Below are positions 8,528 through 27,872 of a stretch of 37,016 bases of DNA, piece by piece. The stretch is from the NCBI GenBank assembly GCA_013140575.1, contig JABFSN010000026.1:1-37016 (forward strand), read 5' to 3'. Below the pieces are notes generated by a model. The model saw only the letters and a program-made list of their open reading frames with translations. It made no database searches and was not told the DNA's origin. A program made the translations under genes and the position numbers. Source of the stretch: Phycisphaerales bacterium (lineage in GTDB: Bacteria; Planctomycetota; Phycisphaerae; UBA1845). Each line of letters starts with the position of its first letter. The first letter of the stretch is position 1.

Positions 8528-9853
8528 ATGGCGAGCATCACACGGGAATCGAACGGGCGGCGGACGATTCAATTCGTCGGGGGCGACGGTCGGCGGCGGA
8601 GCATCCGGCTGGGGCGGGCGACCCAACGGACGGCCGACGCGGTCAAGGTGAAGGTTGAACAGCTTGCGTCGGCGGCGATGACCGGGCACGCGATGGACGA
8701 CGAAACCGCCCGCTGGGTGGCCGGTCTGGACGAAACGATGCACGGCAAACTGGCGATGGTCGGGCTGATCGCCCCGCGGGATGCCGTCACGCTGGGGGCG
8801 TTTATTGACGGCTATGTCGGGTCCAGAACGGACGTGAAGGGAACGACCGCGACGGTTTACGGTCACACGCGCCGCAACCTGATTGACTGTTTCGGGGCGG
8901 GCGTGCGGATGCGTGACCTGACGGCCGGGGACGCCGATCGGTTTCGGTTGCACCTGATCGAACAGGGATTGGCCGAGAACACCGTGCGGCGGCGGTGCGG
9001 CATTGCCAAGCAGTTTTTCCATGCGGCGGTGCGGCGAAAACTGATCGAGGCGAATCCGTTCGCGGACCTGACGGCTGCCGTGCGGGGGAATCCCAGCCGC
9101 TATCGGTTCATCACGCAACAGGAGGCCGGGCGGGTGATGGACGCGTGCCCCGATGCGGAATGGAGGCTGATCGTGGCGTTGAGCCGGTACGGCGGGTTGC
9201 GGTGCCCGTCGGAGCATTTCGCCTTGCGGTGGTGCGACGTGGACTGGGATCGTGGCCGTATCAACGTCCCAAGCCCCAAGACGGCCCATCACGCGGGCGG
9301 CGACCGGCGGGCGGTGCCGTTGTTTCCTGAACTACTGCCGTACCTGCGCGACGTGTTCGAGCGGGCGGACGAGGGGGCCGTCCACGTCATCACCCGGTAT
9401 CGTGACCCGGCGCAGAACTTGCGGACGCAATTCATCCGCATCATTCGGCGGGCGGGGCTGGAGCCGTGGCCGAAGCTGTTTCAGAACATGCGTAGCAGCC
9501 GCGAAACCGAGCTTGCCGAGCGGTGGCCGTTGCACGTCGTCTGTGCGTGGATCGGCAATTCGCAAGCGGTCGCGGCCAAGCACTACCTGCAAGTCACCGA
9601 CGAACATTTCGAGCGTGCGGCGATGAGCGCCCCTGGTGGGGACGACGCGATCGAAGCCGACGAATCGAAGGCGGTGCAGAATCCGGTGCAGCAAACCGCC
9701 GAACGGTGTCGCAAGGCGGCGCATGGCGATTGCGCGGAAGCCGACGAATCGGCGTTTTGCGATACGCCGCGAGGATTTGCGACAGCGTGCGGCACTGCCG
9801 GGATCGGGGGGATGGGCGGTGAGGGACTCGAACCCCCAACCTCCTGCGTGTAA
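8528..9853 (+). CDS. int: Tyrosine recombinase/integrase (441 aa)
   Basis: ATG 8528 follows a GGAAGGA ribosome-binding site and lies 2 nt after the XRE stop. An N-terminal arm-type DNA-binding region is followed by a SAM-like core-binding domain (about residues 98-180) and a catalytic domain. Catalytic candidates are R225 (GGLRCPSE), R325 (NMRSSRETEL), H336 (HVVCAW) and the nucleophile Y353 (KHYLQVTDEHF). In the second box, the position of the usual His of HxxR is Arg (R322xxR325), as I recall for planctomycete integrases. The last codons (GGEGLEPPTSCV) are the complement of tRNA-Val, so the C-terminus depends on the attachment site. It catalyses integration and excision of the element. Confidence 0.9.
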   Translation: MASITRESNGRRTIQFVGGDGRRRSIRLGRATQRTADAVKVKVEQLASAAMTGHAMDDETARWVAGLDETMHGKLAMVGLIAPRDAVTLGAFIDGYVGSRTDVKGTTATVYGHTRRNLIDCFGAGVRMRDLTAGDADRFRLHLIEQGLAENTVRRRCGIAKQFFHAAVRRKLIEANPFADLTAAVRGNPSRYRFITQQEAGRVMDACPDAEWRLIVALSRYGGLRCPSEHFALRWCDVDWDRGRINVPSPKTAHHAGGDRRAVPLFPELLPYLRDVFERADEGAVHVITRYRDPAQNLRTQFIRIIRRAGLEPWPKLFQNMRSSRETELAERWPLHVVCAWIGNSQAVAAKHYLQVTDEHFERAAMSAPGGDDAIEADESKAVQNPVQQTAERCRKAAHGDCAEADESAFCDTPRGFATACGTAGIGGMGGEGLEPPTSCV

Positions 9854-9886
9854 GGCAGGCGCTCTAGCCAATTGAGCTAACCGCCC
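9813..9886 (-). tRNA. tRNA-Val(UAC), attachment site of the element
   Basis: On the minus strand the acceptor stem GGGCGGT/ACCGCCC, D arm, anticodon arm CCTGC-CTTACAC-GCAGG (anticodon TAC) and T arm with TTCGAGT are all present, with discriminator A; CCA is not encoded. Length is 74 nt. The 3' half overlaps the integrase stop (to 9853) on the other strand, and the gene is intact here. Confidence 0.95.
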
Positions 9887-21347: not shown

Positions 21348-23642
21348 TCAGGGCGTCGGGCGGTCATTCCCGTCGGGTGCATCTCGGGGTTCGCCAAGGC
21401 GCCTTTCAAATGCGCCCAGCTGCGCGTGCCAGTCCGATCCGAGCGAATCATCGGGAATGGTCCGCAAGCGATGAATCAACTGGACGGCCGCCGTCGAGTC
21501 GTTGTCGGCGCCCGTCGCCATCGCCTCCAGATGTTTCATGATCGAGTCGGTGATCGCCTTCTTGCCGGCGGCGTCCGCGGCCGCGGCGACGTTCGAGATC
21601 AGGTCGATCCCACCGTCGGTGCGATTGCTGCGCAGTGCGGCCGTCACCAGCGTCAAACCGACGGCATCGGCCCGCGCCGGATCGGAGGTACGCAAGATCG
21701 CATGCACTCGCTCCAGATGGGGGATTGCCTCGGCGTATTTATTTTGGGCCATGTAGTCCTCGACGAGCCGTTCACGAGCGGCCGTCATTTCCGGAGGGTT
21801 GGCGTTGGCGGCCACCCAGGAATCGACCAGCGCGGTCAGCAGTTGAATTCGCCGATCCGGGAGGTGGCCCAGCCGATCCGCCCATTTGAGGCGCGCGGGG
21901 GCGGGAATGCGGAGAACGATGTCGCGGAAACCGACAAACGCCGCGTCGCGGACGCCGGCGGTCGATTCCACGCTCGGGGCCATGCGGTTGAGCAGGGCCT
22001 CGAGGTGTTGTTCCTCCCCTAACGAGCCGACGGCCTCCGCGGCCACCTGTCGAACCCGCGCGTCCGGATGGGCCAAATGGGTCAGAACGTCGTTGATGCG
22101 CTCCCGAACGCCGACGGCCTTGATGCCCCGGATCGCCGCCAGCAGGATTTCCGGCGATTCCGCCGTCAGGTTGACGACGAACGCATCGACGAACGCCGGA
22201 TCGGCAATCATGGCCATCGCACCCAACAACGACTCGCGCAACCGGATGTTGTCGGCGGGCGTTTCGCTGAATCGATTCAGCAGCGGCCTCACGGCGCCGG
22301 CGATGATCTCTGTCGGCGCCTTTCCGCGGACCCCGAGAAGCCCGAGCGACCGCGCCGCCTCGCAAACGCAATCGACGGACGTCGTCGGCGCTGCCAATTC
22401 GGAGATTAACGCGGGAATCGCCGCTGGGTTTTCCAGCCCGCCCAGCACGCGCAGCATCGTCGCGCGGACCGCAGAATCGTTTTCCGTGCGCAAGGCTCCG
22501 AGCACCTTTTCGGCGTCCGCGGGATCCTTCAAATGACCGATGATTTCATGTGCGGCGATTCGCACGGGAGGCGCGGAATCGGCGAAAAGCTTCTTGACCG
22601 AATCGCGCAGGGGCTGCGAGAGAGGATCACCGGCGGTCACGATCTGATCGCGGATGAGCGCCAGCGCCGCCAACCGAATGTCGGCAAGCGGGTCTTCCAA
22701 CCAGCCTTGCCGCCGCGCATCTTTCTGCGCGGGCTGGGTGGTCAATTGATCAATGATCCGCAGGGCATCGCCGAATCGCTTGGTGACCTCCCGCTCCCGT
22801 TTTTCATACTCGGCCTCGGCGTCCTGCAAACGTTTCCGAAGCGCCCGCTGCTGCTCGATCGCCAATTCGAGCCGATTCTCGATCCACTGCGCCTCGGTCA
22901 TGGCCTCCTTTTCTTTCCACCACGACTGCCATTTTTCGATATCCGTCCCAAAGTTGGTCCGCGACGCCGGCGTCAATGCGCCCACAGCATGGTTGACGAT
23001 CGTCGGGTTGGAGGCCTTCAGCAGCGAAATCAACTCGCCCACTACCTCCCGGCGGTTGGTGGACGGCGATAATGCATCGATGGCGGCCGTGCGCACCGCG
23101 ATCGGACGCAGTTCGTCGCGGGCGATGTCGCCGAGCACTCGGGCGACTTCGGGGGAACGGAACGCCGCCAGAGCCCCGGCCGCGGCGGCCGACAGCGCCG
23201 CGTCCTCGTGCCCCAGGATCGCCAACAGCGGCGTCACCAGCCGTTCGTCGAGCCGGTCGTCGCGATTGGGTCCCAGGGAAGCTATGGCTCCGCATAGGGC
23301 CATGGCCTTTCCCGTGGACCCGTTGCCAGCCAACAGACCGATGACCGCGTCGATTCGGGTCGGCAAATCGGACTTGAGGAGTCCCTCGGCCGCGAATCTC
23401 CGGAAATCGGCTTCCTTCGCATCGCTGGCGATGATTTCAATGTAATCGGCCAGTTCATCCTGCTGTTCGGGCGTCAGGTCGTCGCCGGCGGGCGCGCGAT
23501 CCGGCGCATCCTGAACCGCGCCGCGGCGAGCTGTCGAAGGGGCGGACTGGCGGGCCTCGGGCGCGGTCGCCTGCACCGCCGGTGCGCAGCCCGACCCCCA
23601 GGCCAGAAGACCGGACGTCAGACTAATCAAAAATGCCGCCAT
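21348..23642 (-). CDS. Exported HEAT-repeat protein with central coiled coil (764 aa)
   Basis: The start at 23642 gives a signal peptide (MAAFLISLTSGLLAWGSGC) with a possible but weak lipobox at Cys19; a longer N-terminus from 23702 is possible. Alternating helix pairs such as ALCGAIASLGP, DAALSAAAAGALAAF, VRIAAHEIIGHLKD and VRQVAAEAVGSLGEE mark HEAT repeats in two blocks (about residues 80-245 and 325-600). Between them, about residues 245-300, is a coiled coil (EAQWIENRLELAIEQQRALR). The C-terminus has TPR-like helices. It is likely a scaffold at the envelope; no enzymatic motif is seen. Confidence 0.75.
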   Translation of the reverse strand: MAAFLISLTSGLLAWGSGCAPAVQATAPEARQSAPSTARRGAVQDAPDRAPAGDDLTPEQQDELADYIEIIASDAKEADFRRFAAEGLLKSDLPTRIDAVIGLLAGNGSTGKAMALCGAIASLGPNRDDRLDERLVTPLLAILGHEDAALSAAAAGALAAFRSPEVARVLGDIARDELRPIAVRTAAIDALSPSTNRREVVGELISLLKASNPTIVNHAVGALTPASRTNFGTDIEKWQSWWKEKEAMTEAQWIENRLELAIEQQRALRKRLQDAEAEYEKREREVTKRFGDALRIIDQLTTQPAQKDARRQGWLEDPLADIRLAALALIRDQIVTAGDPLSQPLRDSVKKLFADSAPPVRIAAHEIIGHLKDPADAEKVLGALRTENDSAVRATMLRVLGGLENPAAIPALISELAAPTTSVDCVCEAARSLGLLGVRGKAPTEIIAGAVRPLLNRFSETPADNIRLRESLLGAMAMIADPAFVDAFVVNLTAESPEILLAAIRGIKAVGVRERINDVLTHLAHPDARVRQVAAEAVGSLGEEQHLEALLNRMAPSVESTAGVRDAAFVGFRDIVLRIPAPARLKWADRLGHLPDRRIQLLTALVDSWVAANANPPEMTAARERLVEDYMAQNKYAEAIPHLERVHAILRTSDPARADAVGLTLVTAALRSNRTDGGIDLISNVAAAADAAGKKAITDSIMKHLEAMATGADNDSTAAVQLIHRLRTIPDDSLGSDWHAQLGAFERRLGEPRDAPDGNDRPTP

Positions 23643-23710
23643 TGCATGTCCCGGAATGCCCCGTCCCTGCGCGCCCGTCCGTGAATGATGACACCCTGCC
23701 ACGTCTGACG

Positions 23711-24562: not shown

Positions 24563-24609
24563 CGGCGCGGCCGCGACGGGTTTGGGTTCCGGCTATCCGG
24601 CTATTGGCA

Positions 24610-24715
24610 TCAGAACCCCGGACGCGAGTCCGGGGCCGAATCGGAACCGGTTCGAATTCGTTCCGCGTGTCGTCATCGGTTCCGTTCGGCACGCCACTCG
24701 CGTGGCGGGTTCTGA
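24610..24715. repeat. Family A palindromic repeat, copy 1 (106 bp)
   Basis: The ends TCAGAACCC (24610-24618) and GGGTTCTGA (24707-24715) enclose CCCCGGAC-GCGA-GTCCGGGG and CGCCAC-TCGC-GTGGCG hairpins. It sits in the leader region of the 24765 gene and accounts for the spurious N-terminal extension of that frame. Confidence 0.85.
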
Positions 24716-24764
24716 ACGAAGCTGCGAACACGAGCTCTCGGATCGGGTGGAGGACCCTGAATCC

Positions 24765-25985
24765 ATGCACCACTCCAGAATGATCGCCTCATCGGAAAAA
24801 CGACGTTTCGGGCGGCATCGTGCCCGAGTCGCCGCCGCCTGCCTGTCCACGTGTTGCCTGTTCACTGCCGCAACAACGGCGACGGCGGAGGACGCGTACG
24901 CCGCCCATCGGCTCGTGGCCGAACATGCCGTGGACCATTTGCCTCGGGAATTCGCCGCAATCGTCGTGCAACATCGCAACGCGATTGTTCGCGTCGCGTG
25001 CGAACTCGGCAGCGACCAGCGCGATCCGGACGAGCCCCACCTATACAAGCCGGGCCACCACATTCGGCTGGACGTCGCCGCCGAGGGCGGGACTCGCGAA
25101 ATGCGATTGGCCGCGTTCGATCAGTTCCCGCGCGATCGTGAATCGGCGCTGCGGCTGTTCAAGAGCATCGGCGAGCACAACGGCGGCGAATTGCCCTGGA
25201 CCATTCAGGAATGTCAAACCCGGCTCAAGGACGCGATTCGGATCGGCGATCCCGAACGCATCGCCCTGCGCATGGGGCATCTCATCCACTTTTGCACCGA
25301 CGCGGTCGATCCGTTTCGCGTTTCGGTCGGCGCCGGGAAGACGGCCGATCGATTCGTCGAAGTGGGATCGGCCGGCGGCGTCCATCCGAGCAACGTCGAT
25401 CATTCTGTGGCCGAGCGGTTCAGTGCGGGATTAGTACGACGACATCAGGCCGACTACCTGTTGCGGTGGAGCGAACGGGTAGATGAAGCGACGGCCCCGA
25501 TCCTTGAACCTGACAGCGTGCCCGGCGGCTTCGTCTGGTCGGCGATGCGTGACGCGCTGGCATCGGTCGACGAAATCCTCGCCGCCGACGAGGCCCTACT
25601 GCCCACCGCTGAGGTCACTGACCGCAAGTCGTTCGATTCGCGGGCTGACGATTACTACGCGGGCATGAACGCCCGCGTCGGCGACAACGGCATGCGGCAA
25701 CTGGTGACGGCGATCCAGCTTGCCCAAGTGCTGATCCTGCAGGCGTGGGAGTCGGCCGGGCGACCCGCGTTGGACGCGGCCGCCGCCGAAAAACCACCGG
25801 CATCACCGATTCCGGGCGGTCCTGCGGTCGGGGCGTTCGTGGGCAGCCGCCTTTCCGACGTGTTTCATCGCCCGGATTGCCCGTTCGCCCAGCAGATCAA
25901 CAAGGAAAACCTGGTGACGTTCGCCAAGGCCGGCGACGCCACCGGGGCCGGTAAACGGCCCTGCCGCCGCTGCAAACCGGAATAG
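24765..25985 (+). CDS. Secreted S1/P1-nuclease- or phospholipase-C-like protein with Ada-like zinc tail (406 aa)
   Basis: ATG 24765 (GGAGG upstream) is preferred because upstream codons derive from a repeat; ATG 24780 is an alternative. A signal peptide ends near TAATTATA-EDA. The body is helical with metal-ligand-like clusters, DEPHLYKPGHHIRLDV (about 89-104) and MGHLIHFCTDAVDP (170-183), the latter like the HxxxD motif of zinc-dependent S1/P1 nucleases and phospholipase C. The last 50 residues, FVGSRLSDVFHRPDCP and ending RPCRRCKPE, resemble the Ada-type Cys4 zinc-binding module found at the end of some secreted nucleases. Substrate unknown; an extracytoplasmic hydrolase is the best inference. 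Confidence 0.6.
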   Translation: MHHSRMIASSEKRRFGRHRARVAAACLSTCCLFTAATTATAEDAYAAHRLVAEHAVDHLPREFAAIVVQHRNAIVRVACELGSDQRDPDEPHLYKPGHHIRLDVAAEGGTREMRLAAFDQFPRDRESALRLFKSIGEHNGGELPWTIQECQTRLKDAIRIGDPERIALRMGHLIHFCTDAVDPFRVSVGAGKTADRFVEVGSAGGVHPSNVDHSVAERFSAGLVRRHQADYLLRWSERVDEATAPILEPDSVPGGFVWSAMRDALASVDEILAADEALLPTAEVTDRKSFDSRADDYYAGMNARVGDNGMRQLVTAIQLAQVLILQAWESAGRPALDAAAAEKPPASPIPGGPAVGAFVGSRLSDVFHRPDCPFAQQINKENLVTFAKAGDATGAGKRPCRRCKPE

Positions 25986-26176: not shown

Positions 26177-26231
26177 CGGGGCGCGCGACCCGTCGTTCGT
26201 CGAGTGACCTTGGGCGTTCGCCGGTCGCGCG

Positions 26232-26273
26232 AAAAAAAAGACGGAAGGTGTCGCCGTGGCGAGGACACCTTCC
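26232..26273 (-). terminator. Strong Rho-independent terminator of the lysine-rich peptide gene
   Basis: On the minus strand GGAAGGTGTC/GACACCTTCC (26273-26264 and 26252-26243) forms a perfect 10-bp stem, followed 3 nt later by eight T (26239-26232). It is about 110 nt after the 25-residue gene. A second perfect hairpin, TCGTTCCG-TTTT-CGGAACGA as read on the plus strand, lies at 26288-26307 in the same 3' region. Confidence 0.85.
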
Positions 26274-26382
26274 ATCTCGCGATTCCCTCGTTCCGTTTTC
26301 GGAACGACTCGTGCGGTGCGCTCGATCGGCTGCCGTGGCGTGAGCCGAAGCACGATGCGCGCCGCGTTCGGCGTCATGCCGA

Positions 26383-26460
26383 CTAAGCCTTCTTCTTCCG
26401 CTTCTTGGCTGCTTTCTTCTTCGTCGTCTTCTTGGCGGCTTTCTTACGTTTCTTTGCCAT
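26383..26460 (-). CDS. Lysine/alanine-rich micropeptide (25 aa), histone-tail-like
   Basis: The peptide starts MAKKRKKAAKKTTKK and ends KRKKKA; apart from Met, only Lys, Arg, Ala and Thr occur. AAAGGAGGTGAG, an almost perfect anti-Shine-Dalgarno match, lies about 9 nt before ATG 26460, and a promoter (TTGACA-N16-TAGGAT) and a terminator frame the unit, so it should be highly expressed on a transcript of about 250 nt. Longer frames that include it (to 26808) ignore these signals. The composition is like the tails of bacterial H1-type (HctA/Hc1-like) or ribosomal proteins, so nucleic acid binding is the natural inference. No known family of this size is recognised. Confidence 0.65.
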   Translation of the reverse strand: MAKKRKKAAKKTTKKKAAKKRKKKA

Positions 26461-26489
26461 AGTGCGCTCACCTCCTTTCTTGATGGGAA

Positions 26490-26517
26490 ATCCTAACGCA
26501 CGTCGGCGCGCTGTCAA
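26490..26517 (-). promoter_or_regulatory. Promoter of the lysine-rich peptide gene
   Basis: On the minus strand a perfect TTGACA (26517-26512), a 16-nt spacer and TAGGAT (26495-26490) lie about 30 nt before the start codon. An A/T tract (26518-26535) directly upstream resembles an UP element. Confidence 0.65.
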
Positions 26518-27872
26518 AAGAATTTTTTTTGAAAATCCTGTTTTTGACTTGACCCGTCGACGCGCGCGAGTGTGTTTGGAACGGTTTCCTGCGGCGTGAA
26601 GCTCGCGTTGGTCACGCCGGTGACGCGCGCTCCACGCGTCGCGCAGCGCGCAACGAAACGCCGGCGACGAAAACAAATCCGTTGCGCCACGTCCGCCGCG
26701 TCGCCGCGAATGGGGGGCGGGGTTTTCGGGTCGCGTCGCCGCGCACGAGACGGTCCGTCGCGCGCCGGAGTCATGGGCGCTCGTGGCGCACATGGAATAA
26801 AATGGCATCTGTGGCGGGAAAGCGTGCGTTCTTGCGGGGGCGCGTGACGAAACGATGATTTCAGTAAGTGCCGCTTGTTGACACTACTGGCGATTCCCGT
26901 GCAATCCCTTCAAACGCTTCTCACCGTTCTTCCGCCTCGTTCGAGTTGTGGCCGGGAATGCGCCGATGCATCGCCAATGGGCGACGATGAGCGCGCCACA
27001 ACGACGATGATGAACCGCGTGATCTCCCCGGTCGACGCGTCGGTGCATTGTTGTGAAATGAAAAACCGACCGCGGACGAAACTAAAAAAAATTTGCAAAA
27101 ATTATTGACAACCTCCTCCGTCACGACCGGTTTTCGCGCCGGTTGCAGCATTTGTCCCCGCCGCGCGGGCGAACATGCCCGCCTCGTGGAAACGAAAACC
27201 AACCGCCAAGGACGCGCCTTGCGACAGTTCCGCGCCGCTTCTGCGAATTGAAACAGCGGCGCGAGTCGCATGTTCGCGCTGACCTCGCGCGACCATCGAT
27301 TGACGGCAATCCTCGGCTCGATCGGAATCTTCACCGCGCCGGTGACGCATGACATCGTCGCGGGCGCGCCGACCGCTACGAAACTCGCGGACGTTTTCGG
27401 TCGGGATTTCCGAGTATCGTCCCGATGGACGGGTCCGACGGCATCGTCGCAAGCGGGCCGGGTCGGGCACAGGAAATGAGCGGGGCCGGATCTCGCGGAA
27501 ACCGGGGTGTCCGGAAATATCGCAAAGATCGGCGTGAATTTTATTGCTCCCGGCCGCTCGTTTTGGTAGTCTGGGCGGTTAGCTGTTGGCGGGGAGGTAA
27601 ACCGCCGACGCCACCGGACCTCTCGGCGTGCGGGTCGGCGCGACCTGATTAGGATTACTCGACATAGCGGGTACGCGGGGGGCGCGACCGCACCTCCCGC
27701 GGAAGTTCCGGCGTGCTGACGGTCCGCCAGCCCGGACGCAGGTCCAGTCGGACCGCGATCGCGGCGTGTTCCCGATGCACGCCCGGCAGTTCAGAATCAC
27801 GGCCCGGGGGGCGACCTTGGTTGGTTCGTCCCGCTGAAGCCGCATTTCGATTGCTCGTGAAGGAGGGACACC
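26518..27872. other. Gene-free region of 1.35 kb with CG-rich words and A/T tracts
   Basis: No ORF here has a credible start or protein-like composition. The region alternates CG-rich words (CGCGCG, GACGATGA) with A/T tracts at 26518-26545 and 27082-27104. TTGACA occurs at 27105-27110 after the second tract, but without a -10 box. GGCGGTT/AACCGCC arms occur near 27579-27609. I found no DnaA-box consensus, tRNA or known RNA by eye. It could hold a structured RNA, a decayed gene or a chromosomal site. Confidence 0.5.

Follow-up and report, generated by a model that had tools for sequence, protein, structure and literature searches.

A single-copy unit of a Lys-rich mini-gene and a conserved terminator hairpin in Phycisphaerae, with a possible dual output

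The window analyzed here, i.e., the whole 37,016-nt stretch of DNA from a Phycisphaerales bacterium, contains on its minus strand a short unit (26232-26530) that is probably a single-copy, dual-output transcription unit, which would supply both a nucleoid-binding peptide and a hairpin RNA that is separable from it and works in trans. Comparison of genomes shows the conservation of the unit, the fixed place of its Lys-rich ORF, the covariation of its terminator stem, its single copy, and the splitting of peptide gene and hairpin in one family, f4. If this reading is true, a mini-histone-like peptide has escaped annotation in much of a bacterial class, together with a conserved RNA that is missing from Rfam.

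Layout of the unit in the window

The features of the unit, in 5' to 3' order on the minus strand, and a plus-strand neighbor are as follows.

26530-26523, minus strand: A8 tract, read from the sequence
26517-26512 and 26495-26490, minus strand: promoter-like hexamers TTGACA and TAGGAT with a 16-nt spacer, read from the sequence
26480-26468, minus strand: extended Shine-Dalgarno (SD) sequence AGAAAGGAGGTGA, a 13-nt contiguous complement of the 16S rRNA 3' tail
26460 (ATG) to 26383 (stop), minus strand: ORF of 25 aa, MAKKRKKAAKKTTKKKAAKKRKKKA
26348-26326, minus strand: hairpin H1, 6-bp stem TCGGCT/AGCCGA with the loop CACGCCACGGC
26307-26288, minus strand: middle hairpin, 8 bp, TCGTTCCG-AAAA-CGGAACGA
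26276-26240, then T8 to 26232, minus strand: terminator hairpin GATGGAAGGTGTC - CTCGCCACGGC - GACACCTTCCGTC
26260-26253, minus strand: loop octamer of the terminator, GCCACGGC
24582-25985, plus strand: convergent gene with an Ada-type zinc-binding C terminus (PF02805, E 8e-8)

The expression elements described in an earlier note on this DNA are all present on the minus strand, and the array recurs in relatives. The same note gave the terminator a 10-bp stem; the hairpin and the T8 run are indeed there, but by our own reading the stem comprises 13 pairs, one of them G-T, and the 10 bp are only its inner part. H1 is a further element that the note did not contain. The hairpin at 26276-26240 is an intrinsic terminator and the last of three hairpins, and these signals suggest that the mini-gene would be highly expressed. 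Among the aligned sequences, similar promoter hexamers with similar spacing exist in the Phycisphaerae rows and are absent from the Sedimentisphaerales-type and Patescibacteria rows. The frame of the ORF is also open further upstream, to an ATG at 26808, and the start common to relatives is that at 26460. The middle hairpin varies in sequence among relatives and is not conserved. The loop core CGCCACGGC is common to H1 and the terminator, but the two copies of this nonamer in the 37-kb window are close to the 1.83 expected by chance, and the argument for a shared loop therefore rests on the comparison with relatives.

Because the 16S rRNA of the same genome ends with GGCTGGATCACCTCCTTTCT (G000:C203), an end that was identical in 18 of 21 genomes tested, the leader AGAAAGGAGGTGA pairs without a gap with 13 nt of the anti-SD tail. 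In the 5.05-Mb genome, AAAGGAGGTGA has three occurrences, one in the leader of the mini-gene, one antisense to the 3' end of the 16S gene, and one ahead of a 73-aa ORF. Rfam at the gathering score gave only a tRNA (9813-9886) in the window, and at E<=5 the best match in 26180-26620 had an E value of 0.59, with no relevant family. As to the surroundings, a neighbor related to the convergent zinc-binding gene lies at the same place in 18 other loci searched, or 13 after the removal of copies. A 784-aa HEAT-repeat protein is encoded at 21348-23702 on the minus strand, and its relatives lie 2.5 to 4.8 kb beyond the mini-gene in two other loci (L041 and L057).

Conservation of the ORF and the hairpin

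A DNA search of 60 relatives gave matches in 50 at E<=0.01, some of them through runs of Lys codons only, and the SD-start-ORF unit was recognized in 23 of 30 fetched loci, the locus of the window included (21, plus two with a GTG start). A model of the terminator, R1, was built from 26 terminators with the ORF excluded, and it matched 52 of the 60 relatives at E<=1 and 49 at E<=0.01; at the latter threshold, it also matched 115 of the 298 class genomes searched. The other 183 class genomes gave no match, among them G009, G248, and G252, three genomes of one genus in family f1, which means that the element is not universal or that R1 misses diverged forms. In the first of these three, the ORF and H1 are present, and the terminator has another stem and lacks the GCCACGG loop. 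R1 matched essentially one place per genome, the second matches below E 0.007 being the hairpin already found, read from the opposite strand; the exception is G287, with two matches at contig ends. When the phylum was scanned with R1, only four of 294 genomes matched, all of them from the same class, where the number of the 294 lying outside the class is not fully given. The unit is thus essentially single-copy and present in much of one class, which is Phycisphaerae by record titles.

A scan for AAAGGAGGTG-N5-9-ATGGCNAARAARMGNAAR in 84,980 species, each represented by a single genome, found 40 loci, of which 14 are titled Phycisphaerae, Phycisphaerales, Phycisphaera, or Sedimentisphaerales and another 14 Planctomycetota only, while at least eight of the remaining 12 are not Lys-rich mini-ORFs. 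Two loci from Patescibacteria (L042 and L050) and one from an uncultured bacterium (L051) combine AAAGGAGGTG with Lys-rich mini-ORFs starting with MAKKRK; GCCAYGG was not found in their available downstream stretches, which for L051 is only ~40 nt, and these loci are possibly convergent or transferred relatives. The deduplicated family loci numbered 40; L046 and L056, which nearly duplicate L045, were excluded from the alignments.

By a hand count, R1 matched 129 genomes at E<=0.01 (49 and 115, with 35 common to both), and 114 hairpin loci were compiled. The genomes left uncompiled were G014, G015, G019, G026, and G058, all five of which do carry the Lys-rich ORF, and G271, G081, G152, G189, G196, G222, G229, G279, G287, and G304. 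Since R1 holds nothing of the ORF, its matches test the association between ORF and hairpin. Outside family f4, a Lys-rich ORF with an SD sequence was found by rule upstream of the hairpin in 95 of 99 loci, and in 97 when two judged by eye (G010 and G041) are added, while the same rule gave 0/98 on the opposite strand, 0/95 when displaced upstream, and 0/98 when displaced downstream. The arrangement of SD, ORF, and terminator, whose presence in relatives had been raised as a check on the unit, thereby exists in 97 of the 114 compiled loci, two of them by eye. The two non-f4 loci without a Lys-rich ORF are those of G275, which was kept among the 114 despite lacking both loop and ORF and is probably a false match of R1, and of G049, which has a different mini-ORF. 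At this latter locus (L113, family f5), a GTG-initiated mini-ORF of other composition, VAWACGKTGRNMAIIKASRKKQ, replaces the Lys-rich one, and the hairpin unit comes after what looks like the end of a gene that we take to be mnmE from the motif FCIGK. A contiguous match to the 16S tail of at least 12 nt precedes 62 of the 95 rule-found ORFs (12, 13, 14, and 15 nt in 19, 26, 14, and 3 ORFs, respectively), and the match is just 5 to 7 nt in 12 of them.

The 25-aa peptide consists of 14 Lys, six Ala, two Arg, two Thr, and one Met. Its relatives among the 95 ORFs span 12 to 140 aa, with 57% Lys and 23% Ala, a composition that is partly due to construction because the ORFs were selected by Lys content. 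The rule demanded nothing but Lys content, and neither Asp nor Glu occurs among the 4112 residues. All codons of Lys, Ala, Arg, and Thr are in use across the related ORFs. Third-position variation in the first codons was set aside as a coding test, because its 52 ORFs had been picked by a protein motif, and the displaced and opposite-strand controls were used instead. The conserved SD sequence and start, the fixed place of the Lys-rich ORF, the controls at zero, and the lack of acidic residues together give strong comparative support, short of proof, for the view that the ORF is translated. No family in Pfam or NCBIfam matched the peptide or its longer relatives. Neither the 25-aa peptide nor a 98-aa relative matched the Hc2/H1-like family PF07382, and an 85-aa f4 copy reached an E value of 0.36 and 11.3 bits, below the cut-off of 40; the Hc2/H1-like trait of a Lys/Ala-rich, low-complexity tail of variable length is present. 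The proposal of a real gene with histone-tail-like composition is borne out, with no family match.

The terminator hairpin was examined in the alignment A7, which was fitted to R1 and contains 36 rows hand-picked across the class from the 114, with the loop required. It took the place of the MAFFT alignment A5, in which some stems were out of register, and another alignment, A6, was discarded because 10 reverse-strand matches were inside. In A7, all 14 outer stem pairs have compensatory changes and 96.0% of the cells are paired, a level reached by none of 500 shuffles, whereas structures slid along the alignment gave 38 to 59%. G-U pairs exist at most stem pairs. The information content is 1.6 to 2.0 bits in the loop columns versus 0.2 to 1.8 bits in the outer stem columns, and the octamer GCCACGGC was found in 97 of 107 sequences having a loop match, although R1 includes the loop and its matches are therefore biased toward loop-bearing hairpins. 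T occupies each of the four positions 3' of the stem in 32 to 34 of the 36 sequences. Between the stop codon and the terminator, a second GCCAYGG exists in 22 of 25 f1 loci, compared with 0.8 (maximum 5) in 1000 mononucleotide shuffles, and by motif count only it also occurs in f12 (2/2) and f25 (1/6) and in no other family. In f1, this second copy of the loop sits in a hairpin without a T-run, and RNAalifold found double changes in five of eight pairs of H1. In family f23, the GCCACGG loop is missing in four of the five compiled genomes; L187 to L190 keep the Lys-rich ORF, and two of these four have CGATACG instead. The complement of the terminator loop is GCCGUGGC. When rRNA was considered as the target of the loop, the regions flanking the 16S 3' end in three genomes contained no 8-nt complement, with 7-nt ones in two of them, and rRNA was rejected as a target within this scope; pairing of the loop with itself or with AUG start regions left mismatches by eye.

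Separation of the peptide gene and the hairpin in family f4

In all 15 sampled genomes of family f4, the hairpin exists with its stem and loop strongly conserved, and the Lys-rich ORF is found at the hairpin in none of them. The promoter-like motifs upstream of the f4 hairpin are CTTGC in 10 of 15 loci and CGCAAGATTG in six, and are otherwise loose. In the six loci with CGCAAGATTG, the T-run ends 114 to 119 nt 3' of the motif, and more hairpins are predicted between them. The f4 hairpin is thus apparently a free RNA, of about 115 to 120 nt where the promoter can be placed, and such an RNA could also be a relic.

The peptide gene of f4 was located elsewhere: a search with the SMC C terminus in 27 genomes (15 of f4 and 12 others) revealed a Lys-rich mini-ORF starting with MAKK 31 to 54 nt after smc in 14 of the 15 f4 genomes, the exception being G280, whose smc match has a different tail, while no basic ORF lies within 160 nt after smc in the 12 genomes of other families. 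These copies had first been reached via Lys-rich DNA matches and a pattern scan that matched 11 of 21 genomes. Another pattern scan, with matches in five of 26 genomes, overlooked known positives and went unused, and querying 15 genomes with an 83-aa Lys-rich protein gave no matches even to known positives and was uninformative. Since families from all over the class have the fused layout, the simplest assumption is that the split one is derived. Because f4 keeps the peptide gene and the hairpin apart, each is likely useful alone, which suggests that the peptide and the hairpin RNA each do their own job. The idea that the 3' region has a role of its own also seems to hold, in view of the near-invariant loop, the covarying stem, and the ORF-free hairpin in 15 of 15 f4 genomes. 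The spread of the unit through the class, the near-invariance of the loop, and the f4 separation go beyond what the note had anticipated.

Longer proteins with Lys-rich parts were also observed. L219 and L218 (G066 and G108) encode proteins of 78 and 108 aa, in which a Lys-rich N-terminal tail is accompanied by a short domain that ends with RRSTIKPQDL or RRSTVKPQDL and looks histone-fold-like; L219 gave only sub-threshold matches in Pfam, DUF1931 at E 0.15 among them. L208 and L209 (G051 and G048) encode 117-aa proteins whose N-terminal part is Lys-rich, and L208 contains a HARE-HTH domain (PF05066, E 2.7e-9).

Possible functions and known systems

In the reading that we favor, the near-ideal promoter and an SD sequence that matches almost the entire 16S tail by complementarity would drive the synthesis of a very basic Lys/Ala peptide of variable length, which most likely coats or compacts DNA by its charge in the manner of the tails of H1-like proteins. 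The position next to smc points the peptide to the chromosome, and the reading of the peptide as a nucleic-acid binder gains indirectly from these f4 copies. The terminator hairpin, at the 3' end of the RNA, would act as an RNA by itself, and the most likely mode is in trans, with the loop GCCACGGC presented to a protein or a target RNA; the apparent free RNA and the near-invariant loop both point in this direction, and in family f1 the loop is duplicated upstream as H1. A bolder version, which we regard as rather unlikely, is that the hairpin represents a trans-acting RNA of a new class, is linked to chromosome organization, and works in one nucleoid pathway with the peptide (and with SMC in f4), so that the fused and split layouts deliver the same pair, perhaps for tuning or scaffolding condensates of peptide and DNA.

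The unit might instead be just a gene for a Lys-rich nucleoid peptide whose 3' hairpin is an efficient intrinsic terminator kept by descent. The T-run of most sequences agrees with this explanation, as do the single copy, through which descent could preserve some sequence, and the f23 genomes that keep the ORF with an altered loop. An ordinary terminator, however, need not hold eight loop bases while all outer stem pairs change, and the maintenance of the f4 hairpin without the ORF and the second f1 loop copy in a hairpin without a T-run also make the explanation doubtful. Autoregulation is another candidate, in which the loop hairpin is the site for a regulator of the peptide mRNA, possibly the peptide itself, and the f4 RNA controls the smc-linked copy remotely. 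Basic peptides do recognize bulged hairpins, as Tat does TAR, and the product here is very basic; when the inner GC/GC pairs of the terminator are enforced, 85 of 102 sequences have extra unpaired bases exclusively on the 5' side, most commonly three (35/102). These inner pairs, however, form without constraint in the predicted folds of only 35 of the 102 sequences, the enforced geometry in f4 is different, the 5' side mostly having 5 to 9 nt, and a single loop sequence is unlikely to be read by low-complexity peptides whose length ranges from 12 to 140 aa, all of which renders autoregulation improbable.

Short basic proteins such as bL37, bS22, and bTHX are associated with the ribosome, and the peptide, which is short and basic, starts with MAKKRK, and follows an SD sequence complementary to the 16S tail, had been proposed to be of this kind. 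That proposal is disfavored by the span of 12 to 140 aa and the low complexity, which are ill-suited to a fixed ribosomal site, as well as by the f4 copies after smc and the lack of a family match, and we consider it very unlikely. Hardly credible is the view that the hairpin functions as a DNA element, i.e., a protein-binding or recombination site: it is an inverted repeat that exists once per genome, but G-U in most stem pairs, the strand specificity of the T-run, and the promoter-like sequence upstream in the same direction all indicate an RNA.

No report of the gene or the RNA was found in the open-licence literature covered, passages of PMC3177640 included, and the terms "Phycisphaer" and "histone" are absent from PMC2864571. 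Under the dual-output reading, the separation in f4 is a natural experiment that distinguishes the function of the peptide from that of the RNA, the position of the peptide gene behind smc directs attention to how the chromosome is packed, which in Planctomycetota is an open question, and the loop octamer offers a direct handle toward its partner.

In animals, histone mRNA carries a conserved 3' stem-loop, encodes a basic chromatin-type protein, and has an SLBP-type partner. The likeness of the present unit to it, a conserved 3' stem-loop on the mRNA of a basic chromatin-type protein, is a functional resemblance only, because the hairpin here is a bacterial intrinsic terminator of unrelated sequence. 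SgrS/SgrT is a dual-function RNA with a mini-ORF, and both it and VcdRP likewise place a mini-ORF and a conserved RNA part on one short transcript. The mini-ORF of VcdRP encodes the 29-aa VcdP, according to PMC8672173. Unlike in these RNAs, the part conserved here is a terminator loop, the peptide resembles a histone tail, and the two are found apart in f4. Chlamydia Hc2 and Pseudomonas AlgP resemble the mini-gene in being Lys-rich, of low complexity, and highly variable in length; the size differences of Hc2 are described as arising from Lys-rich repeats (PMC2848022) and AlgP as a Lys-rich histone H1-like protein of Pseudomonas (PMC9239181). The present peptide is, however, far shorter (25 aa) and below the cut-off of the family, and its mini-gene is a transcription unit of its own with a conserved hairpin RNA tail. 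The nearest known kinds are H1-like proteins and dual-function RNAs, neither of which accounts for this combination.
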